NCBI GenBank assembly: GCA_027040375.1 | Contig: JALUMJ010000130.1 | Location: 1-28,072, forward strand | DNA from: Campylobacteraceae bacterium | Lineage (GTDB): Bacteria; Campylobacterota; Campylobacteria; Campylobacterales; Sulfurospirillaceae | DNA length: 28,072 bases | Reading direction: 5' to 3' | In this document: one piece after another, positions 1,686 through 16,735 of the stretch | Layout of the letters: every line of letters starts with the position of its first letter | Position numbering within the stretch: the first letter of the stretch is position 1 | Notes under the pieces: model-generated | The model's input: only the letters and a program-made list of their open reading frames with translations | Told to the model about the DNA's origin: nothing | The model's database searches: none | Translations under genes and position numbers: made by a program

Positions 1686-3020
1686 CTAAAATCCCCTCCC
1701 AAAAATAACTTCCACCTTGCTGCCAACTCCAACTTTCGACTCTACATGTAGAGTTCCACCAAGAAGCATAATAGAATTTTTAACGATACTTAGTCCTAGT
1801 CCAAAACCTTTTATGGACTTGTTTCTGCTTTCATCAACTCTATAAAATCTATCTGTTATTTTGTCTATTTTGTCTTTTGGTATGCCTATGCCTTCATCTT
1901 TTATGATAAAGTGAATGTGGTTGTCTTTTTTGTATAAGGAGATGTAAATATTTTTTCCATTTGGGGAGTATTTTATGGCATTGTCTATGAGGTTTGAAAA
2001 GATTGTATTAATCAAAATCTCATTTGTGTTTAATTGTATGTTTTCTATCTTTTGGATATGTATTTTTATATCTTTTTCTTTTAAATTTGTATCAAATACC
2101 TCTATAGTGTTTAAAAGTATAGACTCCATAGAGCAGAGTTTATAAGTCTGTTTTATATTTTCTTTTGTATATCTTGTCAGCAATAGAAGATTTTCTATGA
2201 TGTCTTGGATCTGGTTTGCTTCCACTTCTATCTTTCCGAGTATGGTTTGGTAGTAGGTGATATCTCTTGGTTTTAAAGTTGCTATCTCAATCTCGCCTTT
2301 TATGACTGTTAGCGGAGTTTTTAGCTCATGAGATACATCAGAGTTAAATCTTTCGATTTTCTTGGTTCCATCTTTTAGTCGGTGTATCATTTCATTAAAA
2401 GCCAAAACTAATTCTCTCGTTTCATCATCGTATTTTGGTGAAGGTATGGTTGAGGAAAAGTCATCTACAGAGATATTTTTAGCAGTTTTTGTGATGCTTT
2501 TTATGGTAAATAGTATCTTGTCTATAAGCTTACTTCCTAAAAGTACAAGAAGAAGAAGTAACACAAGTTCTGAAAAAAACATGATATAGACTATATTTTC
2601 AATTTTATCGTCTATATTTTTTTGGTATATGATGATTTTAATGTTATTTTCTGTGAGATTTAAAATATAGCAAGCATTAAAAAAATCCCCATTTTCGATT
2701 GTCGAAAATTCTGCACCTCCTACCTTGGTGAAAAGTTTTTGGAAGTTTGTATCTCCTTTCTTAGCTATGAGTTTTTTATCTTTATATACAGCTATATCAT
2801 AAAGTTTATATTTTGGGCTCTTCAATATGAGAGATAAGCTTTTTTTGGTTTTGATGTTTTCTTTTATGAGTAGCGCAGTGTTTGATAATCTCTGTTGTAT
2901 CTTTAGGTTGATGCTTGAGTTTAAAGAATGATATAAAAACAGACTAAAAACAAGCAAAATGATAGCAACTAACGAGGCAAACCAAGCTAAAACTCTGATT
3001 TTCAGACTATTAAATTTCAA
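1686..3020 (-). CDS. Sensor histidine kinase (HAMP, HisKA, HATPase)
   Basis: 444-residue two-component kinase. There is a transmembrane segment at ~9-31, a periplasmic sensor region of about 110 residues (~32-142) with no recognised domain, a second membrane segment ~143-163, a HAMP linker to ~215, and the dimerisation box DVSHELKTPLTVI with phospho-acceptor His231. The ATPase domain shows an N box (NLIDNAIKYSPNG), a G1 box (DEGIGIP) and a G2 box (GFGLGLSIV). The start overlaps the 3' end of the response regulator gene by 11 bp, so the two are translationally coupled. It is the last gene of an operon with phosphatase and DedA genes, which suggests it monitors an envelope or lipid-related signal (inference). 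Confidence 0.95.
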   Translation of the reverse strand: MKFNSLKIRVLAWFASLVAIILLVFSLFLYHSLNSSINLKIQQRLSNTALLIKENIKTKKSLSLILKSPKYKLYDIAVYKDKKLIAKKGDTNFQKLFTKVGGAEFSTIENGDFFNACYILNLTENNIKIIIYQKNIDDKIENIVYIMFFSELVLLLLLVLLGSKLIDKILFTIKSITKTAKNISVDDFSSTIPSPKYDDETRELVLAFNEMIHRLKDGTKKIERFNSDVSHELKTPLTVIKGEIEIATLKPRDITYYQTILGKIEVEANQIQDIIENLLLLTRYTKENIKQTYKLCSMESILLNTIEVFDTNLKEKDIKIHIQKIENIQLNTNEILINTIFSNLIDNAIKYSPNGKNIYISLYKKDNHIHFIIKDEGIGIPKDKIDKITDRFYRVDESRNKSIKGFGLGLSIVKNSIMLLGGTLHVESKVGVGSKVEVIFGRGF

Positions 3021-3669
3021 TCTTATAACCTAACCCTCGAAAACTTTTGATTAGTTCTTTACCTACTTTTTTTCTAAGATTATACATCGTAACTTGTATA
3101 ACATTACTGTTTATATAACTTTCATTGTTCCAAAGTTGTTCCTCTATCATGGAGTTTGATACGATTCCATTTTTGTGTTTGATGAGAAAAACTATAAGTT
3201 CGTACTCCTTTTTAGATAGTATGATTTTTTCATGGTCTTTGGTAAATATTTTTGCATCCATATCCAAGATGCCAAACTCTTTTAACTTTATAATATTTGA
3301 GCTTGAAACGATGGATCGCCTATATAGTGCCTGAATTCTCGCATTTAATTCTTTGAAACTAAAAGGTTTAGATAGATAGTCGTCCGCACCCTTTGCTAGT
3401 CCTTTTACTTTGTCATCTATCTCACTTTTGGCTGTGAGCATGATGATAGGTGTTTTTATATCCTTGTCTCTAAGGGATTCCAAGACATCCACCCCACTTT
3501 TTAGAGGCAACATCCAATCAAGTACGATGACATCATAATGATTAAGAGTCGCCAGATATTCACCATCCTCACCATCTTTTGCACTATCTATCGTGTATCC
3601 TATGTCGGTAAATCCATTTTTCAAAAAAGAGAGGATATTTGTATCATCTTCAACTATTAAAAGTTTCAT
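3010..3669 (-). CDS. OmpR/PhoB-family response regulator
   Basis: 219 residues: a receiver domain with acidic pocket E7-D8-D9, phospho-acceptor Asp51 (VIVLDWMLP), conserved Thr79 and Lys101 (SKPF), followed by a winged-helix trans_reg_C domain (~130-219) ending FRGLGYKIEI. It pairs with the overlapping downstream histidine kinase. Its ATG shares one base with the DedA stop codon (TAATG). OmpR/PhoB regulators bind tandem direct repeats with an 11-bp pitch. Exactly such repeats (TTCATTTTCAT twice) stand before the first gene of this operon and two neighbouring genes, so autoregulation plus control of pmtA and the PepSY gene is likely (inference). Confidence 0.95.
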   Translation of the reverse strand: MKLLIVEDDTNILSFLKNGFTDIGYTIDSAKDGEDGEYLATLNHYDVIVLDWMLPLKSGVDVLESLRDKDIKTPIIMLTAKSEIDDKVKGLAKGADDYLSKPFSFKELNARIQALYRRSIVSSSNIIKLKEFGILDMDAKIFTKDHEKIILSKKEYELIVFLIKHKNGIVSNSMIEEQLWNNESYINSNVIQVTMYNLRKKVGKELIKSFRGLGYKIEI

Positions 3670-4250
3670 TATTTCTTTCTTTTTACTTTAACATAGATTG
3701 CTATCAAAACTATAACCAAAACAAGAGTTGCGATGGTAATCTCTTTTAAGTATTGATGAATCAACTCTGTATTTGCCCCTAGAAAATATCCTAAAAATGT
3801 TAAAATACTAGCCCATATGCCTGCGCCTAGAGTTGTGTAGATGCTGAATTTTAGTGCATTCATTTTAGCAAGACCTGCGGGAAATGAGATGTACTGTCTA
3901 ATTCCAGGAATCAGCCTCCCTGTAAAGGTAGAGATATGTCCGTGATTTTCAAAAAATACTTCAAGTTTTTCTACTTTTTCATGACTCATTATTTTATCTA
4001 AAAACTTTCTTCCAAATTTTGAAGCCAAGAGGTAATTAAACCAAGCCCCTGCTAAACTACCAAGTATTCCAAAAACTAGAACTAAAGATAAACTCATTTC
4101 CCCTTGATAAGCAAGGTAGCCAGCCGGTATCATCACAACTTCACTAGGAAATGGAAAAAAAGAACTCTCTAAAAACATTAGAGCAAATATACCAACATAG
4201 CCCATTTGCCCTATAGTGTTAACCAAAAAATTTACTATTTCATTCAACAT
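3669..4250 (-). CDS. DedA-family membrane protein
   Basis: 193-residue integral membrane protein of the DedA/SNARE-associated family. It has the conserved N-terminal acidic segment (LESSFFPFPSEVVMIPAG) and the diagnostic FTGRLIPGIRQYISFPAG motif with its two arginines, plus a Lys-rich C-terminus. DedA proteins are linked to undecaprenyl-phosphate and phospholipid transport across the inner membrane and to resistance to envelope stress. It lies in the middle of the PAP2 > metallophosphoesterase > DedA > RR > HK operon, 1 bp from the upstream gene and overlapping the response regulator by one base. With a BcrC-like PAP2 enzyme in the same operon, a role in undecaprenyl carrier recycling is plausible but not shown. 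Confidence 0.92.
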   Translation of the reverse strand: MLNEIVNFLVNTIGQMGYVGIFALMFLESSFFPFPSEVVMIPAGYLAYQGEMSLSLVLVFGILGSLAGAWFNYLLASKFGRKFLDKIMSHEKVEKLEVFFENHGHISTFTGRLIPGIRQYISFPAGLAKMNALKFSIYTTLGAGIWASILTFLGYFLGANTELIHQYLKEITIATLVLVIVLIAIYVKVKRKK

Positions 4251-4251
4251 A

Positions 4252-5247
4252 TTAATCTTTCTTTTTGATAATCATGCAATTATACACAAATAGATAAAAC
4301 AAACCAAGCAGAGCCAAAAACAGATCCCAATGCGCTAGTGCATACATGCTTATAAATTCTTTTAGGTTATGTAAAAATTCATCTATCAAAGAACCAGATG
4401 GTTTTGTAATTTGTTTTGCTTTATAATCCACTTTCGAACCATTTACATCGATGAGTACATAATGGTGAAAAAAGTGACTCTTGTCCTCACCCCCTAGTTC
4501 AGCTCCTGCACCCCCAGTGACAGTATATGGAGTTTTGCCCCATTTACCTGTGAAGTACCCGTGTTGATGGGCTGTAAAAATCATATCTATTTTGTATTTA
4601 TCAAATAGGTTTTGCAATTTAGATGCAAACGGTTCATCAAATTGTGCTTTTACTATAGAGTCTTTTACGGGATCATGAAGAGGAATATGCATAAAAACAA
4701 AAACATGTTGAAATTTTTGAGAGATTTTGAGTTTGTTTTTTAGCCATGCAAATTCTTCTGCTCCCATGCCCGTTTCATGCGAACCATCAAGCATCAAAAA
4801 GTATGAGTTTTTGAAACTAAAAGCATAATAAGCTTTGCCAAAAAGATAATAATAAGCCGAACTCATCCCTTCTGTTTCGTGATTTCCTGGAACCACTAAA
4901 AAAGGTTTTTTTATGGCGCTTATCTGTTTTAGGTAGATTTTGTATTCTGAGTTTCCATCTATCATATTGTCTATAAGATCACCCGTTTCACAACTAAATG
5001 CGATATTTTCTTGGTTTACTTTTTTGATAAGTTTGGGAAATGAAAAAACCGAGTTTTTATTATCTCCAAATACAACAAAAGAAAATTGACTGCTATTGTT
5101 ATCTTCTTTATGGATTTTTTGTAAATTTTTATAGTTCAAATCCTTCACCTTTGGCATCTCAAAAAGCCAAGGATATAAAAACACACCAAGCCCAACCATA
5201 ATCATAACCATAGCTATGATATTGTGTTTGTTAAAAATCTTTCTCAT
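4252..5247 (-). CDS. Membrane-anchored calcineurin-like metallophosphoesterase
   Basis: 331 residues with the metallophosphoesterase motif series: FGDNKNS (Asp62), ETGDLID (Asp90), GNHE (Asn122-His123), HIPLHD (His187) and AHQHGY (His227, His229). The first motif is GDN instead of the usual DxH. There is an N-terminal hydrophobic segment (~9-28) and a C-terminal one (~303-327) followed by KKKD. The catalytic domain would lie in the periplasm if the first segment acts as a signal anchor. Its ATG overlaps the PAP2 stop in an ATGA arrangement. The substrate is unknown; phospholipid head groups, lipid A or nucleotides are all possible. A decayed relative of its 3' end lies at 5988-6278. Confidence 0.85.
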   Translation of the reverse strand: MRKIFNKHNIIAMVMIMVGLGVFLYPWLFEMPKVKDLNYKNLQKIHKEDNNSSQFSFVVFGDNKNSVFSFPKLIKKVNQENIAFSCETGDLIDNMIDGNSEYKIYLKQISAIKKPFLVVPGNHETEGMSSAYYYLFGKAYYAFSFKNSYFLMLDGSHETGMGAEEFAWLKNKLKISQKFQHVFVFMHIPLHDPVKDSIVKAQFDEPFASKLQNLFDKYKIDMIFTAHQHGYFTGKWGKTPYTVTGGAGAELGGEDKSHFFHHYVLIDVNGSKVDYKAKQITKPSGSLIDEFLHNLKEFISMYALAHWDLFLALLGLFYLFVYNCMIIKKKD

Positions 5248-5807
5248 CTTTTCTCCTTGAAAATTTTATACCAAATTGATATGATAAATTTATTTACTAC
5301 AGTTAGCTTGTCTTTTAATACCATGATAAAAGTAACAGCTATGATTGAAACAACAATAGAACCTAGTATATCAAAAGGATAATGAACCCCCGCATAAACC
5401 CTTGCCAATCCACACCATAAAGCTAAAAATGCAGATATGATACCTAAAGTTCTTGTTGACTTAAATGTTAAAAGCATTAGTGCAATTGAAACTGTAAATG
5501 TTGTGTGATCAGAAGGAAAAGAGTTTTCTGACTTATGAGCTAATAGTGTAGCCCCTAAGTGATCCATAAAGGGACGATTGTGAAAGTAAAAAAGTCCTAT
5601 GACTAGATTTATGCCAACCCCTAGAGTTGTAGCATATCCCGCATATAATGCTTCAACTTTTTTATCCTTAAACCACAGATAAAGAAGTAATCCGATAAAT
5701 AAAAACGGCATATCTCGTGCCGCTGCCGTCATCACAGAATCCAGAAGATGACTTTTTAGTGCATATGAGTTGATACTCAAAAATATATCTTGATTTAAAG
5801 TTAGCAT
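5244..5807 (-). CDS. PAP2-superfamily phosphatase (BcrC-like undecaprenyl-diphosphatase candidate)
   Basis: 187 residues with several membrane segments and the PAP2 phosphatase motifs: FYFHNRPF (motif 1, Arg78-Pro79; the upstream Lys of the full consensus is not present), FPSDHTTF (motif 2, His101) and GLARVYAGVHYPFD (motif 3, Arg136, His142, Asp146). Length and motif spacing resemble BcrC-type undecaprenyl-diphosphatases, but phosphatidylglycerophosphate or lipid A phosphatases share this fold. It is the first gene of the operon with the metallophosphoesterase, DedA and the two-component pair. Its promoter (5837-5867) carries the tandem 11-bp repeat. Confidence 0.87.
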   Translation of the reverse strand: MLTLNQDIFLSINSYALKSHLLDSVMTAAARDMPFLFIGLLLYLWFKDKKVEALYAGYATTLGVGINLVIGLFYFHNRPFMDHLGATLLAHKSENSFPSDHTTFTVSIALMLLTFKSTRTLGIISAFLALWCGLARVYAGVHYPFDILGSIVVSIIAVTFIMVLKDKLTVVNKFIISIWYKIFKEKR

Positions 5808-5836: not shown

Positions 5837-5867
5837 ATTATACTTGCGAAAATGAAATGAAAATGAA
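5837..5867 (-). promoter_or_regulatory. Promoter of PAP2-DedA-TCS operon with tandem 11-bp regulator box
   Basis: Read on the minus strand: TTCATTTTCAT (5857-5867), then TTCATTTTCGC (5846-5856), 3 bp, then a perfect -10 TATAAT (5837-5842). The direct repeats cover the place of the -35 box, as in PhoB/OmpR-activated promoters. The same arrangement occurs before pmtA and the PepSY gene. That the response regulator at 3010-3669 binds it is inference. Confidence 0.7.
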
Positions 5868-5935
5868 AATGTTATCAAATTTCATTTCCTGCCATAAACC
5901 ATGTTTGCCACTTTTACAGCATGTAGCTCGAGCAT
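5849..5935. repeat. Copy A of a duplicated ~87-bp promoter/leader segment
   Basis: This segment aligns with 7607-7692 in the same orientation. By eye there are about 14 differences including one 1-bp gap, roughly 84% identity. The similarity runs from the regulator box well upstream of it, so it reflects a DNA duplication rather than only a shared binding site. Confidence 0.75.
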
Positions 5936-5987
5936 TATTGAAATAATAGTAAAATTTTAGTTAAAAGTTTAACTCCAAATATTCCTC

Positions 5988-6278
5988 TTAATGTGCTTCT
6001 ACTTTCTTCATAATCTCATCTCGCATCTCGTCTAACCACATGCCCACGGTTTTTACATCTAGCTTGACTACTTTATACTCTATTTTATCGCCATCAACAA
6101 TTACTTTTATATAGTGGTAAAAACTATTCTCTTTTAAAGGAGCTCCTGCTCCTCCTGTGATAATATATGGTGTTTTTTGCCAAACTCCACGAAAGTAAGA
6201 GCTAATGTGTGAGCTAAAAATCATACTTGCATTGTACTTATAAAATATATCATTTAGCCGTTTAGCTTTTTCATTTTA
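5988..6278 (-). pseudogene. Remnant of a second metallophosphoesterase gene (3' end only)
   Basis: The minus-strand frame between a stop at 6276-6278 and a stop at 5988-5990 encodes a 96-residue fragment. It matches the last third of the metallophosphoesterase at 4252-5247: RLNDIFYKYNASMIFSSH against LQNLFDKYKIDMIFTAH, then KTPYIITGGAGA against KTPYTVTGGAGA. The catalytic domain before this point is gone, and the metal-binding AHQHGY has become SHISSY, losing the second His. An internal ATG at 6224 could still give 78 residues, but these could not be an active enzyme. It abuts the pmtA-like gene with 5 bp between them, so the truncation was probably a deletion. The C-terminal membrane anchor is also missing. 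Confidence 0.8.
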
Positions 6279-6283
6279 AATTC

Positions 6284-6994
6284 CTACTTTGTACAGACAT
6301 AAACAAAAGCAGGTGGTAGGTTTAACCATACTGTTTTTGTTTGGATTGTTACTTTAAATTTCTTTTCTAAAAGTCTTTTAAACTTTCTTCCTTGTGGTAA
6401 AAATGAACTTTGGGCATAGGCAAAAGTCAAAAATTCACCGCCTTTCTCTAGACTATCATAGATGCTATCTATTAACTCTGTCTGCTTTTTTTCATCAAAA
6501 CAAGACCAAGGTAAACCAGATATCACACAATCACAAAAATGCTTATCATTGTTATGTAGATATTTTTGTATATCTTTAGCGTCTGCATGATAGACTTTAG
6601 CCTCAGGACAATTTAGCTTAGTTTTTGCTACAAAAAACTCGTTTAACTCTAAAGCAAAAAAAGTAGCATCATCAGGTAGCTTTTTTACTATATCCTTTGT
6701 AAAAACTCCCGTACCTGAACCTAACTCAACTACTGTCTTTTTCTCTTTTAAATTTGCTACATCTGTTATGTAATTAGCTAAAATAGTTGACGATTGAGCT
6801 ACTGCTCCAGTACTAAATCTATCTTTTTTAAACTCTTTTAAAAACTCCACAGAGCCTTCTATGTTTTTTTCAATACATTCTCCAACTTGTGAGCTAGAAA
6901 AAATTCTATATGCCTTAAGTGTTTTTAAATACAAAAATCTTAGTGACTCTTCAACACTACTTCTGTTCTGTTTTGCTTGTACAACTGCTTCCAT
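6284..6994 (-). CDS. pmtA: PmtA-like phospholipid N-methyltransferase (class I SAM-dependent)
   Basis: 236 residues. The N-terminal region (FLKEFKKDRFSTGAVAQSS, ~51-69) resembles the start of bacterial PmtA-type enzymes. SAM motif I is VVELGSGTGVFT (~88-99), followed by an acidic ALELNEFF and HADAKD. The motif SGLPWSCFD (~160) and the C-terminal LNLPPAFVYVC are also typical of the PmtA group, which methylates phosphatidylethanolamine towards phosphatidylcholine. rRNA-adenine dimethylases are an alternative relative, but the SGLP motif argues for PmtA. It has its own promoter with the tandem 11-bp box at 7020-7051 and AAGGAG before the ATG. Membership in the envelope regulon is inferred from that box. 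Confidence 0.75.
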   Translation of the reverse strand: MEAVVQAKQNRSSVEESLRFLYLKTLKAYRIFSSSQVGECIEKNIEGSVEFLKEFKKDRFSTGAVAQSSTILANYITDVANLKEKKTVVELGSGTGVFTKDIVKKLPDDATFFALELNEFFVAKTKLNCPEAKVYHADAKDIQKYLHNNDKHFCDCVISGLPWSCFDEKKQTELIDSIYDSLEKGGEFLTFAYAQSSFLPQGRKFKRLLEKKFKVTIQTKTVWLNLPPAFVYVCTK

Positions 6995-7019
6995 CTCATC
7001 TCCTTAATTTATTTATGAA

Positions 7020-7051
7020 ATTATAAAAAGTGAAAATGAAATGAGAATGAA
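7020..7051 (-). promoter_or_regulatory. pmtA promoter with tandem 11-bp regulator box
   Basis: Minus strand: TTCATTCTCAT (7041-7051), TTCATTTTCAC (7030-7040), 4 bp, TATAAT (7020-7025). This is the same architecture as at 5837-5867 and 7594-7625, with one or two substitutions. The 200-bp stretch from here to 7247 shows no gene. Confidence 0.68.
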
Positions 7052-7247
7052 ACGAGGTTATAAATTGATATTCCTATAAATTTTGCTTTTAATTATCAAG
7101 TTTTGTATTTAGTGCGTAAGGTCAGTTAGTAATATTTTCTTGTTGTATTTGACAAAAATAAGTAAATATTTCAACATATTTTTTAAAAGATACCTTTAAA
7201 AATTGATTTACTTCCTACTACATGTAGAGAGCAAACATGCAAACATA

Positions 7248-7565
7248 TTAATCGAGTAAGGACTCTAGCATCTTTGAGTTAACTGGGTCAATATAGACTT
7301 TATGTTTATTGCCTTTGCTATCAATAATTTTAACTCTATATACCAAACATCCATTTTCCTCTTCTAATTTAGCACCTATAGCTCTACCTTCAACAATTTT
7401 TTTAGCAGCAACTACGGCTTGCGTGATATCAATTTTAGTTTTTGACATAGCCGTTGTTTCGCTCCCAAAAAGACCTAATTTGATTGAACAGTCAAAACTG
7501 TCAGCCATCGCAGAACTTCCCAAAAGTGCACTAAGCACAACTCCAGATAAAATAATCTTTTTCAT
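7248..7565 (-). CDS. Small exported PepSY-domain protein
   Basis: 105 residues. A Sec signal peptide is clear (MKKIILSGVVLSALLGSSAMA, likely cut after Ala21). The rest carries one PepSY-like domain: a helix with AVVAAKKIVEGRAIGAKLEEE, then strands GCLVYRVKIIDSKGNKHKVYIDPVNSKML. Two cysteines (Cys26 and Cys69) could form a disulphide in the periplasm. Small PepSY proteins are often encoded beside two-component systems and are thought to modulate sensors or proteases. Here its promoter carries a perfect copy of the tandem repeat found before the two-component operon. It has GGAG before the ATG and a monocistronic layout. Confidence 0.82.
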   Translation of the reverse strand: MKKIILSGVVLSALLGSSAMADSFDCSIKLGLFGSETTAMSKTKIDITQAVVAAKKIVEGRAIGAKLEEENGCLVYRVKIIDSKGNKHKVYIDPVNSKMLESLLD

Positions 7566-7593
7566 CTTTAACTCCTTTTATAAAATCTAGGAA

Positions 7594-7625
7594 ATTATAC
7601 AAAATGAAAATGAAATGAAAATGAA
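7594..7625 (-). promoter_or_regulatory. PepSY gene promoter with perfect tandem 11-bp box
   Basis: Minus strand: TTCATTTTCAT occurs twice in perfect tandem (7615-7625 and 7604-7614), then 4 bp, then TATAAT (7594-7599). This is the best of the three boxes and defines the likely consensus. Confidence 0.72.
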
Positions 7626-7692
7626 AATATTATCGAATTCCATCTCCTGTCATTAGTCATGTGTGCCACTTTATGGCATATAGCTCAAGCAT
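7607..7692. repeat. Copy B of the duplicated promoter/leader segment
   Basis: Aligns to 5849-5935 at about 84% identity by eye, including conserved non-box blocks such as TGCCACTTT and TAGCTC-AGCATT. It fills much of the gap between the PepSY gene and the toxin gene. Confidence 0.75.
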
Positions 7693-7732
7693 TTGCAATT
7701 AAATTCACAGTCTCTCAGTTTCTGTTATAAGC

Positions 7733-7984
7733 TTAGTAAACTTCTTTTCTATGAGCGATTCGGATAACTGAAATAACTAAATAATTGTTCTCTTTTAAAT
7801 AGATAATCCTGTACCTCCCAGCTCTTTTTCTGAATTTTCCTTTATGTTTGCCTTTGAGTTTTTTATCATTTGAAAAATTTCCATTTTTTAAATCTAATAT
7901 TTTTATTGTAACAAGTTTTTGTGCTTTTGTATCTAGTTTTAAAAATTCCTTCTCTGCATTTTTATCAAATGCAATGTTATACAT
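7733..7984 (-). CDS. RelE/ParE-superfamily toxin
   Basis: 83 residues starting MYNIAFDKNAEKEF. An upstream in-frame start at 8023 would lie inside the antitoxin and is unlikely. The ATG at 7984 has GCAGGAATTA directly upstream. RelE-fold features are present: an N-terminal strand-helix pair, a basic core (KLKGKHKGKFRKRAGRYRIIY) and a C-terminal IRIAHRKEVY. RelE-type toxins cleave ribosome-bound mRNA, while ParE types target gyrase; the sequence alone does not settle which, although the HR-x-x-VY tail favours RelE. It overlaps the antitoxin by 8 bp, giving translational coupling. Confidence 0.85.
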   Translation of the reverse strand: MYNIAFDKNAEKEFLKLDTKAQKLVTIKILDLKNGNFSNDKKLKGKHKGKFRKRAGRYRIIYLKENNYLVISVIRIAHRKEVY

Positions 7985-8207
7985 TAATTCCTGCTTTTTT
8001 AAATACTTCTGATAAAGGTACAAGGGTAGTTTTTCCAGATTTCAAATTATCAATTCTTTTGTCTGCAATCATTTCATCTAGTTTGTCAAAATATAATTCT
8101 ATAGCTTTTCCAACCAAGCTAGTTCTGGTTTTATCAAGCTCTTGTGCATACTCATCAAGAGTCTGTATAGCATCTTTTTCTAATCTAATATTTATTGCTT
8201 GTTTCAT
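7977..8207 (-). CDS. Ribbon-helix-helix antitoxin (RelB/CopG-like)
   Basis: 76 residues from the ATG at 8207, which has AAAGG 9 bp upstream. A longer frame from 8255 would extend through the -10 region and is rejected. The N-terminus (MKQAINIRLEKDAIQTLDEYAQELDKTRTSLV) fits a ribbon-helix-helix DNA-binding fold: a beta strand and two helices. The C-terminal part (NLKSGKTTLVPLSEVFKKAGINV) would wrap the toxin. It precedes and overlaps the toxin gene, the usual order for type II pairs, and probably autorepresses through the palindrome at 8240-8249. Confidence 0.85.
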   Translation of the reverse strand: MKQAINIRLEKDAIQTLDEYAQELDKTRTSLVGKAIELYFDKLDEMIADKRIDNLKSGKTTLVPLSEVFKKAGINV

Positions 8208-8239
8208 AATAATAAACCTTTCAGCTGTTTTTTTGTGTA

Positions 8240-8272
8240 TACAATTGTAGTGCAAATAAAAAACTATGTCAA
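8240..8272 (-). promoter_or_regulatory. Toxin-antitoxin promoter with operator-like palindrome
   Basis: On the minus strand, TTGACA (8267-8272), a 17-bp spacer and TACAAT (8244-8249) form a near-consensus sigma70 promoter, stronger than most in the window. The perfect 10-bp palindrome TACAATTGTA (8240-8249) overlaps the -10 box, where an autorepressing antitoxin would bind. Confidence 0.7.
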
Positions 8273-11174: not shown

Positions 11175-11372
11175 TTATCCCATTGGGTACAAAATTTCTT
11201 GATGTACAGTGTCAAGTTCTTTGTTTAATTCGTCGCTTATATTGTAATTTAATCCGTTAAATATGACATCTAGTTGCTCGGCATTGCTAGCTCCAATGAT
11301 GGTTGAAGCTACAAAATCAAACTTCATGCTCCATGCTGTTGAAAGTGTAGTTAAACCAATTCCTTCCTTTTG
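11175..11372 (-). pseudogene. Aldo/keto reductase remnant (C-terminal ~65 residues)
   Basis: On the minus strand, the frame from just after a TGA (11373-11375) to TAA (11175-11177) encodes GIGLTTLSTAW, then FVASTIIGASNAEQLD, then YNISDELNKELDTVHQEI. This is the C-terminus of a Tas-like aldo/keto reductase: the STIIGA motif that binds the NADP phosphate, followed by the last helices. Everything before it is missing. The 5' boundary coincides with the end of the paaK copy, whose last codons and stop run into the remnant, so a deletion joined the two genes. Confidence 0.78.
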
Positions 11373-12655
11373 TCAATCACTCGCACGGCTTTTCCTTCAC
11401 TTCTGATTATGGACTTTGGAGCGACTAACTTGACTTCTACATTTATATATAAATTATTTAGCATCTCGTGTTGGATTTTTTTAGTAAGATTTTCTAAGTC
11501 GCGAACATTTTCACTCATTATGTCTTCATTTAATTCTATATCGATTTGGAGTTTGTCTAAATAACCTTTTTTATGAGCTATTATCTGATAGTTTAGTGTA
11601 ATCCCTTCTACATGTGAGAGAACATGCTCTATTTGCGATGGAAATACATTTACACCATTTATCACAAGCATATCGTCAGCTCTTCCTACGATACTCTCTA
11701 TGCGAGCAAGAGTTCTTCCGCATTTGCAAGGTATTCTTGTAAGTGAAGTGATATCGCCTGTCCTGTATCTGATGATAGGAAGTGCCTGTTTAGTAAGAGA
11801 TGTGACTACGAGTTCACCGCGTTCTCCTTGTGGTAAAACAACCCCAGTTTTTGGGTCTATGATTTCAGGATAGAAGTGATCTTCGTTTACATGTAGGAGG
11901 TGAGAGTGCTTGCAACTAGCCGCAACTCCAGGGCCTATTATCTCAGAGAGTCCGTAAACTTCGACATAATGGATTCCCCAGAGTCTTGCTATCTCATTTT
12001 TAAGACCCTCGCTAGCAGGCTCTGCTCCAAAGAAGCCAACTTTTAAATTGAAATCTTTTTTTATATCGTATCCCTCGGCTTTTGCTTTTTCTGCCATATG
12101 TAATGCAAATGATGGAGTCCCCGTTATAGCTGTTGCTTTAAAATCTTTTAATAGCAAAAGTTGCCTTGAAGTAAAACCAGTTGAACTTGGTATGACTGCC
12201 ATCTTCATGCGCTCAGCCGCCGTATGAAAACCAAGTCCGCCAGTAAAAAGTCCATATCCTGTTGAGTTTTGAAGTATGTCTCTACTTGTAAGTCCGCCCA
12301 TCGTAAAAACTCTAGCCATCACTTCACTCCATACATCCATATCGTGTTCAGTATATCCCACTACTGTTGGTTTGCCAGTAGTTCCGCTAGAGCTATGAAT
12401 TCGCACTATTTGATCCATATCAACCGCAAAAAGACCATAAGGATAATTATCTCTCAAATCTTTTTTCTTAGTAAAAGGCAGTTTGGATAAATCTTTTAGA
12501 GATTTTATATCACTAGGTTTTATGCCTAGAGTATTAAATTTTTCTTTATAAAAAGGCACAAGGTTGTAAACTCTAATTAGAGTTTCTTGCAATCTTTGTA
12601 GTTGTAAAGATTGCAACTCATCGACACTTAAACACTCATTTTTACTGTAAGTCAT
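11351..12655 (-). CDS. paaK: Phenylacetate-CoA ligase (second copy)
   Basis: 434 residues of the AMP-forming phenylacetate-CoA ligase family. The P-loop is IHSSSGTTGKPTVVGYT (~85-101); the adenylation core has YGLSEIIGPG; IRYRTGD and GRADDMLVINGVNVFPSQIEHVL lead into the C-terminal AMP-binding_C_2 domain. It activates aryl acetates (phenylacetate, indoleacetate) to CoA esters, or runs in reverse to yield ATP from the CoA ester. It is closely similar along its whole length to the paaK at 13098-14393. Its C-terminus (RVIDKRKELV) has three residues beyond the other copy, contributed by the deletion junction with the aldo/keto reductase remnant. It is the last intact gene of the ior/paaK operon. 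Confidence 0.92.
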   Translation of the reverse strand: MTYSKNECLSVDELQSLQLQRLQETLIRVYNLVPFYKEKFNTLGIKPSDIKSLKDLSKLPFTKKKDLRDNYPYGLFAVDMDQIVRIHSSSGTTGKPTVVGYTEHDMDVWSEVMARVFTMGGLTSRDILQNSTGYGLFTGGLGFHTAAERMKMAVIPSSTGFTSRQLLLLKDFKATAITGTPSFALHMAEKAKAEGYDIKKDFNLKVGFFGAEPASEGLKNEIARLWGIHYVEVYGLSEIIGPGVAASCKHSHLLHVNEDHFYPEIIDPKTGVVLPQGERGELVVTSLTKQALPIIRYRTGDITSLTRIPCKCGRTLARIESIVGRADDMLVINGVNVFPSQIEHVLSHVEGITLNYQIIAHKKGYLDKLQIDIELNEDIMSENVRDLENLTKKIQHEMLNNLYINVEVKLVAPKSIIRSEGKAVRVIDKRKELV

Positions 12656-12667
12656 CGCTTTTTAGCC

Positions 12668-13096
12668 TTACATGTAGAAGTGTTTAGCTTCAATTATCTG
12701 CACGCCTTCTTTTTCAAGGCTATCAACTGCTTTAGTGATGTTATCCACGCTAAATATAAATATGCCAGTTTGTGACCCATAAAAACTATAAGTATAATAT
12801 ATATTTATATTTTCTTTTGCCAAAGTGGCTATCACTTTATCAAAACTTCCTATATAATCATCTATCTTAACACCAAAAACTTCACTAAACCTCACACTAA
12901 AGCCTGCATCTTCGAGTACGGCTTTTGCTTTTTGAGGATTGTCAACGATGGAACGAACTAGCCCAAAATCACTAGAATCTGCAAGGATTATAGATTTGAT
13001 TGAAACTCCATTTTCAGACAATACTTTTGTAAAATCTGCTAATTCTCCCTCTTTATTTTCCAAAAAAACTGATAATTGTTGAATTTTGTATTTCAT
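12668..13096 (-). CDS. Protein with two tandem ACT domains
   Basis: 142 residues made of two ACT-like domains: ~1-68 (QLSVFLENKEGELADFTKVLSENGVSI) and ~70-142 (GSFDKVIATLAKENINIYYTYSF, ending EAKHFYM). No catalytic domain is attached. ACT domains bind amino acids, and stand-alone double-ACT proteins are common beside paaK and ior genes. A role in sensing an aromatic or branched-chain amino acid to regulate the flanking enzymes is plausible. It lies between the two paaK copies, 1 bp downstream of the first and 12 bp upstream of the second. Confidence 0.88.
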   Translation of the reverse strand: MKYKIQQLSVFLENKEGELADFTKVLSENGVSIKSIILADSSDFGLVRSIVDNPQKAKAVLEDAGFSVRFSEVFGVKIDDYIGSFDKVIATLAKENINIYYTYSFYGSQTGIFIFSVDNITKAVDSLEKEGVQIIEAKHFYM

Positions 13097-13097
13097 T

Positions 13098-14393
13098 TTA
13101 CTTCCTTTTATCTATAACTCGTATCGCTTTACCCATACTTCTCTCTATGCTTCTAGGTTCTACAAGTTTGATTTTTGCATTTATATATAGGTTGTTTAAA
13201 AGCTCACTCTGGATTCTTTTTTGCAGATTTCCTAATGCCCCAATGCTATCCATCGGCATAGTGTCATTTACTTCCACCATAATTTCCAAGCTATCAAGAT
13301 AGCCTTTTTTATCTGCTATGATTTGATAATTTAGCGTTATTTCTTCTATGTTTGAAAGCACATGTTCGACTTGCGAAGGAAATACATTTACACCATTTAC
13401 GATAAGCATATCATCTGCTCTTCCCATGACGCTTTTCATCCTTACATGTGTTCGTCCACATCTGCAAGGTGTTTGGTCTAGGCTCGTGATATCACCAGTT
13501 CTGTATCTTATGATAGGAAAAGCTTGTTTCGTTAAAGATGTGATGACTAGCTCACCTTTTTCACCATAAGGTAAAACTTCACCAGTTTTAGAATCTATAA
13601 TTTCAGGGTAAAAATGGTCTTCAAATATATGAAGTCCATCGTGTTGGTTACAACTATTTGAAACCCCTGGACCTATAATCTCACTCATGCCATATATCTC
13701 ATAGTACTCGATACCCCAAACTCTTGCCACCTCTTTTTTTAAACCCTCGCTAGTAGGTTCTGCTCCAAAGATACCGCATTTTAATTTGAAATCTTTTTGT
13801 AAATCATATCCTTCTTTAAGTGCAACTTCTGCTAAATGAAGAGCAAACGATGGAGTAGAAGCCAATACAGTTGAGCCAAAATCTTTCATCAAAAGAAGTT
13901 GTCTTGAAGTAAAGCCGCCTGAGCTTGGTACTACAGTAGCTCCTACATGTTGTGCTCCATTGTGAAGCCCAAGCCCACCAGTAAAGAGACCATATCCATA
14001 AGCATTGTGTACAGTATCTTGCGAATTTACACCACTCATAGTGTAGCATCTTGCCATCACTTCATCCCAAACATCCATATCGCTTTTTGTGTAGCTTACT
14101 ACTGTTGGTTTGCCTGTTGTTCCACTAGAACTGTGGATTCTCACTATCGCATCTTGCTCAACTGCAAACATTCCAAAGGGATAGTTGTCTCTTAAATCTT
14201 GTTTCTTAGTAAATGGAAGTTTCGCGATATCGCTGATGGATTGTATATCCCCTGGTAATATCCCCAATTCTTTAAACTTTTGTTGATAAAAAGGAACCGC
14301 CCCATAAACTCTTGCTACTGTCTCTTTTAATCTTTTTGTTTGAAGAGTCTCAAGTTCATCTCTGTTTAGTGTTTCGTTTTTTGACCATATCAT
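13098..14393 (-). CDS. paaK: Phenylacetate-CoA ligase (first copy)
   Basis: 431 residues with the same motif order as the second copy: IHSSSGTTGKPTVVSYT (P-loop), YGMSEIIGPG, IRYRTGD and GRADDMLIVNGVNVFPSQVEHVL. A cysteine pair CRC (and CKC in the other copy) lies before GR in both. The start codon follows the iorB stop directly with no gap, so expression is coupled with iorAB. In this setting it probably handles the aryl-CoA products of the ior enzyme. The two copies have diverged most in the middle substrate-binding region, which may mean different aryl acids (inference). Confidence 0.93.
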   Translation of the reverse strand: MIWSKNETLNRDELETLQTKRLKETVARVYGAVPFYQQKFKELGILPGDIQSISDIAKLPFTKKQDLRDNYPFGMFAVEQDAIVRIHSSSGTTGKPTVVSYTKSDMDVWDEVMARCYTMSGVNSQDTVHNAYGYGLFTGGLGLHNGAQHVGATVVPSSGGFTSRQLLLMKDFGSTVLASTPSFALHLAEVALKEGYDLQKDFKLKCGIFGAEPTSEGLKKEVARVWGIEYYEIYGMSEIIGPGVSNSCNQHDGLHIFEDHFYPEIIDSKTGEVLPYGEKGELVITSLTKQAFPIIRYRTGDITSLDQTPCRCGRTHVRMKSVMGRADDMLIVNGVNVFPSQVEHVLSNIEEITLNYQIIADKKGYLDSLEIMVEVNDTMPMDSIGALGNLQKRIQSELLNNLYINAKIKLVEPRSIERSMGKAIRVIDKRK

Positions 14394-14927
14394 CTATACG
14401 CTCCTGCTGTCTTCTATTGCTTGATGAAGTACAGCTATATTTTTATCAGCTACTTTTGCATTCATCACTCTTATGGCTTCTTCTATATCTTTTATATTAA
14501 AAGGAAAATTTGAATCTTTCGCAAGTGAAACCCCAAGCATATATACATTTAAAGCTTGTATTGGAAGTTCCCCTTTTGTAGCTTTTGCAAAGGCATCTAT
14601 TTTTATCGTTTTATAGTCAATACCGGGAAATTTTTCATCCGCATTTACCACTATCGTTCCACCATCTTTTTTAAGGTATTGGATATTTCTAAGACCTTCA
14701 TTGCCCTCAAGTGCGATTAATAAATCTGCTTGACCTTCATCGATAGCAGGAGAGTAAAAATTGCCAACTTTTACATAACAAGATACTGAACCACCTCTTT
14801 GACTCATGCCGTGATTTTCAGTTCCAAGACATTTTTGATCTTTTAATCCTGCTGCAATGGATAAAACTTTTACCAAAAATACAGCTCCTTGTCCGCCAAT
14901 TCCAGCTATTACTATTTGATATTTCAT
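14394..14927 (-). CDS. iorB: Indolepyruvate:ferredoxin oxidoreductase, beta subunit
   Basis: 177 residues of the pyruvate ferredoxin oxidoreductase gamma-type domain: GIGGQGAVFLVKVLSIAAG at the N-terminus and the conserved GTENHGMSQRGGSVSCYVKVG segment. The length is typical for IorB. It overlaps iorA by 4 bp (ATGA) and is followed without gap by paaK. With IorA it forms the enzyme that converts aryl-pyruvates (from Trp, Phe, Tyr transamination) to aryl-acetyl-CoA with reduction of ferredoxin. Confidence 0.94.
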   Translation of the reverse strand: MKYQIVIAGIGGQGAVFLVKVLSIAAGLKDQKCLGTENHGMSQRGGSVSCYVKVGNFYSPAIDEGQADLLIALEGNEGLRNIQYLKKDGGTIVVNADEKFPGIDYKTIKIDAFAKATKGELPIQALNVYMLGVSLAKDSNFPFNIKDIEEAIRVMNAKVADKNIAVLHQAIEDSRSV

Positions 14928-16735
14928 TTTACTTTCCTTTCTATAAATGCATCAGTTGGACATAAATCCTCTATGCAGCCATCACAGCCTATACACAAAA
15001 ATGGGTCTATCTCTATCTTATGGTCTTCATTGTAGTGCATTGGTGGACATTTATATTGTGTGGTACATATATCACATGCTACGCATTTATCCTGATCAAC
15101 CTCTGCGTAGATTCCAGGGAGCATAGTGGGGGCTCTTTCTTTATCTAACACACAAAACTCTCTCATAATCACAACAAGTGGACCATCAGTTGTTTCGTGT
15201 TTTTTCTTCACCTTTTTCATAAAGGCTATGCTTTCATCTAAATTTGGCGTATAGATATGTTCCATGCAAACCGCACCACAACCCTCAACTATGTGTTTGA
15301 GATTTATCACTCCAGGATTTGCCCGTTCAGGTGTCTCTTGGCGACCTGTCATGGCTGTTACTGAATTGTCCATTATAACGAGTATAAATTTGTGTTTTTG
15401 ATACACAGCATTTATAAGTGGAGCAACACCAGAGTGAGTAAAAGTGCTATCACCGATACTTGCTATCACCGTCTTGCTTTTGTCTGCTATAGAAAAGCCA
15501 CTCGCCATAGCGACACTAGCTCCCATGCAAAGTACAGTATCTATGGCACCTTGATTAAGGGCAAGTGTATAACATCCTATATCTGAAGGGTAGATGGATT
15601 TTTTCTTTTTAAAAACTTTCATGATAGAGTAGTAAACATCTCTATGAGGGCAACCAGGACAAAGGTTTGGAGGGCGAACAGGCAGTTCATCTGCGTATTT
15701 ATCGCTTTTGTAAAAACTATTTTTCTCTATAAGCCCAACATTGCTAAATGCTGCTAAAACTTTGTCTTTTGAAAACTCATCTATCTTATGGACATCATTT
15801 GTCAATTTTCCATGAAGATTAGGCGCACTTAACTGTTCTTCGATACAAGGATAACTTTCTTCAAATACTATAATAGTTTTGTAATTCTCAAATAATTTTT
15901 CTAACTCTTTTTTTGGCAATGGATAAGGCATATCAAGTTTCAAAACATCTGCACTTAATTTCATCTCTTCTAGGGCTTCTCGCACATATCCGTCACCAGT
16001 TCCACTGGTCAAACAAAGAGTATCAGCACCGTTAAAATCTTTGGTTTTAGGTTCTATAAAAGTTTCCCAATTGTATTTGGCAATGTCATCCATCCTTTTT
16101 AACTGCTCTAGTCCTTGTGCAAATCTTCCTCTTGGAGGAACTGCTGCCCATCTACCAACATCTCTTTTAAATTCACCTGCATTTGGTTTAAAATCCACTT
16201 CATCATCTACATCGCAAATCTCTCTTGCATGTGAAACCCTCATCACAGGGCGGAGCATCACAGGAATTTCAAATTTTTGAGATAAATCAAGCCCAGTTTT
16301 GACCATATCATAAGCCTCTTGAGGAGTTGCTGGGTCAAATACAGGTATTTTTGCAAACTTGGCAAAACTTCGACTATCTTGCTCAGTTTGGGAAGAGTGA
16401 AAACCAGGGTCATCAGCACTTACTAAAAGCATAGCCCCTAAATGACCTATATATGAAGCACTCATCAAGGCATCACTTGCGACATTCAGTCCAACTTGCT
16501 TTAGAGTGGCACATGTTCTTTTTCCGCTTATCGCTCCGGCATATGCAACTTCAAAGCCAACTTTTTCATTTGTTGCCCATTGTGCGTATGTATCGCAGTT
16601 AAACTGTTTTGAAAATTTTTGAAAATTTCCAATAATCTCACTTGAAGGAGTTCCAGGATATCCTGAAATCATATCTACGCTTGCATGTATGAGACCAAGT
16701 GATATGGCTTCATTACCCATTAAAATTTGTTTCAT
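14924..16735 (-). CDS. iorA: Indolepyruvate:ferredoxin oxidoreductase, alpha subunit
   Basis: 603 residues. The N-terminal POR domain (MGNEAISLGLIHASVDMISGYPGTPSSE) is followed by the thiamine diphosphate domain with PNLCPGCPHR, SDIGCYTL and the GDSTFTHSG...IMDNSVTAMTG binding motif. The C-terminus carries two 4Fe-4S cluster motifs: CVACDICTTQYKCP and CIGCDGCIEDLCP. All eight cysteines are present, so it should be active. The enzyme is oxygen-sensitive and belongs to anaerobic or microaerobic amino-acid fermentation or oxidation. It is the first gene of the operon; GGAG lies 5 bp before the ATG, and a large hairpin (16750-16833) fills the leader. Confidence 0.95.
   Translation of the reverse strand: MKQILMGNEAISLGLIHASVDMISGYPGTPSSEIIGNFQKFSKQFNCDTYAQWATNEKVGFEVAYAGAISGKRTCATLKQVGLNVASDALMSASYIGHLGAMLLVSADDPGFHSSQTEQDSRSFAKFAKIPVFDPATPQEAYDMVKTGLDLSQKFEIPVMLRPVMRVSHAREICDVDDEVDFKPNAGEFKRDVGRWAAVPPRGRFAQGLEQLKRMDDIAKYNWETFIEPKTKDFNGADTLCLTSGTGDGYVREALEEMKLSADVLKLDMPYPLPKKELEKLFENYKTIIVFEESYPCIEEQLSAPNLHGKLTNDVHKIDEFSKDKVLAAFSNVGLIEKNSFYKSDKYADELPVRPPNLCPGCPHRDVYYSIMKVFKKKKSIYPSDIGCYTLALNQGAIDTVLCMGASVAMASGFSIADKSKTVIASIGDSTFTHSGVAPLINAVYQKHKFILVIMDNSVTAMTGRQETPERANPGVINLKHIVEGCGAVCMEHIYTPNLDESIAFMKKVKKKHETTDGPLVVIMREFCVLDKERAPTMLPGIYAEVDQDKCVACDICTTQYKCPPMHYNEDHKIEIDPFLCIGCDGCIEDLCPTDAFIERKVK

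Follow-up and report, generated by a model that had tools for sequence, protein, structure and literature searches.

Three promoters in a 28,072-nucleotide stretch of a Campylobacteraceae genome (hereafter the window, meaning this whole stretch at its full length) carry the same tandem box directly ahead of their −10 elements, which raises the question of which protein reads this box and what it controls. A preliminary description had placed the box at three sites, 3–4 bp ahead of a TATAAT and with an 11-bp pitch over the −35 region, and had proposed a self-regulated set under the OmpR-family regulator encoded in the first of these operons; a genome scan with the 22-bp box and a look at its conservation in related genomes had been suggested as checks. 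All three positions were confirmed on the minus strand, and the boxes have the layout described:

5846–5867, minus strand: box 1, tandem TTCAT-N6-TTCAT, predicted operator of the operon running from a PAP2 gene to the regulator and kinase genes (sequence and genome scan)
5837–5842, minus strand: −10 element TATAAT of promoter 1, 3 bp past box 1 (sequence)
7030–7051, minus strand: box 2, before a gene for a PmtA-like methyltransferase (sequence and genome scan)
7020–7025, minus strand: −10 element TATAAT of promoter 2, 4 bp past box 2 (sequence)
7604–7625, minus strand: box 3, a perfect 22-mer before a PepSY gene (sequence and genome scan)
7594–7599, minus strand: −10 element TATAAT of promoter 3, 4 bp past box 3 (sequence)

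Together with their −10 elements, the boxes read TTCATTTTCATTTCATTTTCGC-AAG-TATAAT (5837–5867), TTCATTCTCATTTCATTTTCAC-TTTT-TATAAT (7020–7051) and TTCATTTTCATTTCATTTTCAT-TTTG-TATAAT (7594–7625), all on the minus strand, and TATAAT is perfect at all three sites. The box spans about −38 to −17. TTCAT half-sites stand at its positions 0, 6 and 11, followed by a degenerate one at 17, and those at 0 and 11 give the 11-bp pitch. In an alignment of 64 sites, where half-sites 0 and 11 are largely fixed by the search itself, the TTCAT at positions 6–10, loosely required by the search, is still strong (49–60 of 64 per base), and the fourth half-site at 17–21 is degenerate beyond TT.

The exact 11-mer occurs three times in the window, and the remaining three half-boxes have one, one and two mismatches. 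In this AT-rich window, single 11-mers with up to two mismatches are at chance level (36 against a shuffle mean of 37.4), and it is therefore the tandem pair together with the −10 element that carries the signal. A scan of the host genome (1.67 Mb in 224 contigs, 91% complete) with the 22-mer at up to three mismatches returned exactly the three window sites, with none for the reversed control. The pattern TTCAY-N6-TTCAY-N8-12-TATAAT likewise returned the same three sites only (control 0), and dinucleotide shuffling of the window, repeated 300 times, gave no such site in 299 cases and a single site in one.

The genes behind the boxes are as follows:

5244–5807, minus strand: PAP2 phosphatase, first gene of the operon (Pfam, NCBIfam; motifs PSDH and RVYAGVHYPFD intact)
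4252–5247, minus strand: calcineurin-like metallophosphoesterase (Pfam)
3669–4250, minus strand: DedA/VTT membrane protein (Pfam; best NCBIfam model UptA, below cut-off)
3010–3669, minus strand: OmpR/PhoB-family response regulator, proposed to bind the box (Pfam Response_reg and Trans_reg_C; co-occurrence with the box)
1686–3020, minus strand: membrane histidine kinase with HAMP, HisKA and HATPase_c domains, probable partner of the regulator (Pfam; no ExxE in the sensor part)
6284–6994, minus strand: methyltransferase (best NCBIfam model the phospholipid N-methyltransferase PmtA, 78 bits against a cut-off of 250)
7248–7565, minus strand: small PepSY-domain protein of 105 aa (Pfam)

The three target units proposed initially, namely the PAP2 operon, pmtA and the PepSY gene, are upheld. 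Behind box 1 the operon is tight, its genes following in the order PAP2, metallophosphoesterase, DedA/VTT, regulator and kinase with ends that overlap or lie 1 bp apart. The best NCBIfam match of the PAP2 protein is an undecaprenyl-diphosphate phosphatase model, below its cut-off. The PepSY product had been called sensor-like, which goes too far for a 105-aa protein with one PepSY domain and a signal peptide recognised by eye only. The regulator combines a receiver with a winged-helix Trans_reg_C domain and is encoded beside a HisKA/HATPase kinase, as in OmpR/PhoB two-component systems, and the predicted operator is a tandem direct repeat with the 10–11-bp pitch of that family beside a −10 element. 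Heavy-metal regulators (CzcR/CopR) were rejected: they are the best NCBIfam subfamily for both regulator and kinase, yet both proteins score far below the cut-off.

The three sites do not have three separate histories, since boxes 1 and 3 sit in the two copies of one repeat and are not independent in origin:

5848–5936, minus strand: first copy of an 89-bp repeat, holding box 1 and about 65 bp upstream of it (repeat comparison)
7606–7693, minus strand: second copy, holding box 3 (repeat comparison)
5940–6266, minus strand: degraded second copy of the C-terminal part of the metallophosphoesterase gene, with stops (tblastn, 7e-21)

The two copies of the repeat are 84% identical, and the regions of box 2 and box 3 have only about 42 bp in common. 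The window holds two independent occurrences of the box plus one copy; of the three promoters described initially, the sites exist and their independence was overstated. The upstream part of the repeat was considered as a further conserved element and rejected, as blastn of this flank against the collected loci matched only the query stretch in copies from the host's own genome (at the setting used it did not return the diverged second repeat copy, seen by other comparisons); the repeat is for this reason treated as a local duplication. The degraded metallophosphoesterase copy (5940–6266, minus strand) stands behind the PmtA-like gene, and in two related loci (L015 and L016) an intact metallophosphoesterase gene adjoins a PmtA-like gene. 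Directly upstream of the PepSY promoter lies a ParE-type toxin gene (7733–8255, minus strand; Pfam ParE_toxin), overlapped by a small upstream gene that has no Pfam match and is placed like an antitoxin gene. Farther along the window (11351–16735, minus strand), two phenylacetate-CoA-ligase-like genes flank an ACT-like gene and adjoin indolepyruvate-ferredoxin-oxidoreductase-like subunits, as read from the translations.

Whether the box belongs to the regulator of the first operon was examined in 396 genomes of the order, each searched both for the regulator protein (ortholog threshold E ≤ 1e-58) and for the 19-bp core TTCATTTTCATTTCATTTT. An ortholog is present in 33 of the 396 genomes. The perfect core occurs in 15 genomes, comprising 14 of the 33 with an ortholog and one of the 363 without (Fisher 5.5e-16), and at up to one mismatch in 20 of 33 against 28 of 363 (Fisher 1.6e-12); both values are too small, because the tests count related genomes as independent. 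The 14 ortholog-bearing genomes with a perfect core span eight genera and five families. By hand count, 47 sites stand against 0 in the reversed control in the 33 ortholog-bearing genomes, and 30 against 35, which is chance level, in the other 363. Within the host's own family, 10 genomes have an ortholog of at least 57% identity, and 8 of them hold the 22-mer at up to two mismatches, versus 3 of the 34 without.

The −10 element lies outside the 19-bp search pattern and provides a separate view of these sites. From the 47 sites 45 were fetched, 43 of them distinct over 46 bases, and 34 of the 43 have a hexamer matching TATAAT at five or six positions at offset +4, every other offset accounting for 0 to 4. 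In the 363 genomes without an ortholog, 23 distinct sites were compared (five of the 30 were left out and two were identical to others); the TATAAT-like hexamer lies at +4 in five of them and at +3 in one. Four of these six −10-bearing sites look real (genomes G006, G051, G095 and G308). G006 retains a regulator fragment only, 54% identical over residues 1–144 and interrupted by one in-frame stop. For G051, whose completeness is rated 100%, the regulator search gave nothing at E ≤ 1e-35, and the identity of the best match reaches 43% in G095 and 33% in G308. The opposite case also occurs: at up to one mismatch the core is missing from 13 of the 33 genomes that carry an ortholog. For 11 of these 13 (all except G064 and G196) the neighbourhood of the regulator gene was scanned with a relaxed pattern, which gave a convincing site in three (G281, G107, G247), a weak one in one (G134) and no site in seven. 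Sites of the form TTCATTTTCATTTCRATTTTAT in genus g3 are without a −10 element and were rejected, being counted as chance. The same genus has a related box, TTCAT-N6-TTCAT followed by TTTAGAAT or TCTAAAAT (L142 at 3587, L141 at 77, L146 at 3557), near regulators only 45–48% identical to that of the window.

Where the box stands in relatives was followed in 15 Campylobacterota loci (L008–L020, L022, L023) out of 80 regulator loci, the other 65, with distant regulators, being left out. In 12 of the 15 the box lies before the regulator operon (L008, L012, L013, L014, L017, L018, L019) or directly behind the kinase gene (L009, L010, L015, L016, L020); L011 and the truncated L023 have no box, and L022 has a weak one without a −10 element. 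Co-occurrence in related genomes and position together support the proposed link with the OmpR-family regulator of the first operon. Against it weigh the 13 ortholog-bearing genomes that lack a near-perfect core, the four genomes with a well-placed box and no full ortholog, and the common origin of two of the three window boxes.

The genes behind the box were classed by Pfam in a list of 69 sites with a −10-like hexamer, a biased sample in that loci were preselected for a known box or regulator, and one that includes some genomes without an ortholog. They encode PAP2 proteins (L151, L168, L196, and also L093 in G006 and L208 in G095, genomes without a full ortholog), a window-type methyltransferase (L116), PEMT-type methyltransferases directly before the regulator (L173, L228), LTA-synthase-like sulfatases (L014, L234), EptA (L196), the undecaprenyl-diphosphate synthase UppS followed by LptF/G (L088), a metallophosphoesterase followed by DgkA (L094), a DedA–PAP2 fusion (L231), DedA-type proteins as second genes (L092, L116, L147), a PMT/ArnT-like protein (L016), EI24 (L015), TolC, HlyD, RND and ABC efflux parts (L215, L224, L227, L231), haem-binding proteins (L155, L179) and PepSY proteins immediately before the regulator (L124, L174). 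In L014, EptA and DgkA genes lie just upstream of the box. The target class was read without Pfam in L008 (blastp to the window) and L119 (motifs), as were sulfatase-like genes in L012 and L018 and a GtrA-like gene in L016. The targets fit one theme, membrane lipid remodelling, outside which the haem-binding, cytochrome-like and efflux genes fall.

The box itself, its spacing, its uniqueness in the genome, its co-occurrence with the regulator and the gene classes behind it are computed observations, from which we infer the following mechanism. The membrane kinase (1686–3020) presumably phosphorylates the regulator (3010–3669) upon an envelope signal. A regulator dimer would then occupy a pair of TTCAT half-sites with an 11-bp pitch, between about −38 and −17, and recruit RNA polymerase to a TATAAT that has a poor −35 element. 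Regulators of the OmpR/PhoB family are known to touch polymerase, and an activator doing so would agree with the constant +4 spacing. The units activated would be the regulator's own operon (PAP2, metallophosphoesterase, DedA, regulator and kinase), the PmtA-like gene and the PepSY gene, and the output would be a remodelling of membrane lipid phosphates, through polyprenyl-phosphate recycling, phospholipid head groups or lipid A charge, similar to that of the ColRS and PmrAB regulons. The box is very probably the binding site of the window's regulator, and we regard the fuller reading, in which it serves as an operator activating these three units with lipid-phosphate remodelling as the output, as likely. 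Autoregulation, as proposed initially, is plausible, and the core idea of the preliminary description appears well supported at the sequence level.

Could the regulator bind the box and yet repress, or act both ways, as the box covers the −35 region? The position of the box would also suit a steric block, some promoters are repressed by ColR itself, and at a 16-bp spacing boxes 2 and 3 hold a −35-like hexamer that matches TTGACA at four of six positions. At the spacing of 17–18 bp, however, all three promoters match TTGACA at only 0 or 1 of six positions, and a constant distance of the box to the −10 element suits polymerase contact, which makes repression an unlikely reading.

Another OmpR-type regulator, such as a DccR-type protein, might instead read the box, the neighbouring regulator being linked to it by shared gene-block ancestry only. 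A similar TTCAC box pattern in a Campylobacter-like genus without a close ortholog and the four genomes that have the box and no clear ortholog would agree with this. Yet the perfect core follows the window's regulator through eight genera and five families, the box is kept at loci with quite different neighbouring genes, and the host genome has no second regulator matching at E ≤ 1e-50, so that we give this explanation little credit. Even less probable is that the boxes are T-rich promoter sequence copied by local duplication and read by no dedicated regulator. The 89-bp repeat around boxes 1 and 3 and the chance-level frequency of single 11-mers speak for mere copying; against it, box 2 has only its short stretch of about 42 bp in common with box 3, the genome holds no further tandem core, and in other families of the order the core precedes different genes.

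With activation by the window's own regulator as the preferred reading, a hitherto uncharacterised two-component system of environmental Campylobacterota gains a readable, predicted operator and a testable regulon, and a readable operator makes targets predictable in many genomes. The phospholipid-methyltransferase slot is filled by two unrelated families, PmtA-like in the window and PEMT-type in L173 and L228, which suggests that the function was selected for and not that a block of genes was inherited. Among the papers returned by literature searches, none describes the box or regulon in Campylobacterota by its title and the start of its abstract, which is weak evidence as most subscription journals were outside the scope. 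A bolder and rather doubtful proposal is that this system, undescribed in the literature searched, governs polyprenyl-phosphate and phospholipid head-group homeostasis across several Campylobacterota families by a small autoregulated regulon (PAP2, metallophosphoesterase, DedA, UppS, phospholipid methyltransferases, EptA, DgkA). In this proposal, the PepSY protein would be exported and feed back on the kinase, and the system in this host would hence sense the state of lipid carriers or membrane charge and not metal. We rate the whole proposal lower because a ColS-like ExxE, within five residues of predicted TM2, occurs in 4 of 13 related kinases (L013, L014, L018, L020).

How does the system relate to known ones? 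DccRS of Campylobacter jejuni, whose host belongs to the same phylum as the window genome, has a box WTTCAC-N6-TTCACW over the −35 region. In a Campylobacter-like genus, 9 of 13 genomes hold DccRS-type boxes with a −10 element, 13 sites in all (control 0), and by reading, TTCAC-N6-TTCAC boxes with a −10 element stand there before small periplasmic, PepSY-type and MacAB-like genes (L253–L264). TTCAY-box regulons may form a broader class in this phylum. Proteins that we take to be DccR from their hemerythrin neighbours are 28–30% identical to the window's regulator in an alignment and fall outside the 40-row tree group that holds it (group support moderate, 91/79); on both counts, membership in DccRS was rejected.

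PmrAB (BasRS) of enterobacteria resembles the window box in its head-to-tail half-sites with an 11-bp pitch, the PmrA box consisting of two 6-bp half-sites 5 bp apart (PMC3973317). PmrAB-like targets (EptA, ArnT-like) are found in relatives of the window system, and BasR/PmrA is among the nearest solved regulators (E 4e-35), behind DrrD and PrrA. The half-site, however, is TTCAT in the window versus CTTAAT in PmrAB, with no CTTAAT-type box at the three sites, and the regulator scores 176 bits against the curated PmrA model, whose cut-off is 330.

The likeness to ColRS of Pseudomonas (RaxRH of Xanthomonas), which also pairs an OmpR-type regulator with a membrane kinase, extends to operator geometry and targets. 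According to PMC2689224, five of seven footprinted ColR sites contain TT(C/G)AC-N6-TT(C/G)AC in one register, PP0903 having no such repeat and PP2561 one only in another register. The geometry TTCAY-N6-TTCAY is the same, whereas the half-site ends in T in most sites here and in C in ColR, and the window box, unlike ColR sites, has an extra conserved TTCAT in the spacer. ColR targets include DgkA and CptA as well as genes for PAP2, GtrA and a putative methyltransferase (PMC2689224, PMC4074579), and PMC8306577 ties ColSR/RaxRH to eptA, lpxE and arnT. From these target classes, PAP2 and methyltransferase are present in the window, and EptA and DgkA in relatives only. DedA, metallophosphoesterase, UppS and PepSY are putative targets here and do not appear in the available excerpts of the cited ColR accounts. 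An ExxE motif beside TM2, used as a criterion in PMC8306577, is absent before TM2 of the window kinase, which by this criterion falls outside ColRS. The preliminary description had known of no described system with this combination, which was too strong, given that ColRS controls genes for PAP2, a putative methyltransferase, DgkA, GtrA and phosphoethanolamine transferases and also has TTCAC-N6-TTCAC sites. By analogy, the window system would work like ColRS/PmrAB, and the box is a conserved, predicted operator of an uncharacterised Campylobacterota two-component system of that kind. Altogether, a ColRS-like logic, in which an 11-bp TTCAY repeat is joined to a lipid phosphatase, a methyltransferase and a phosphoethanolamine transferase, appears in a distant phylum.
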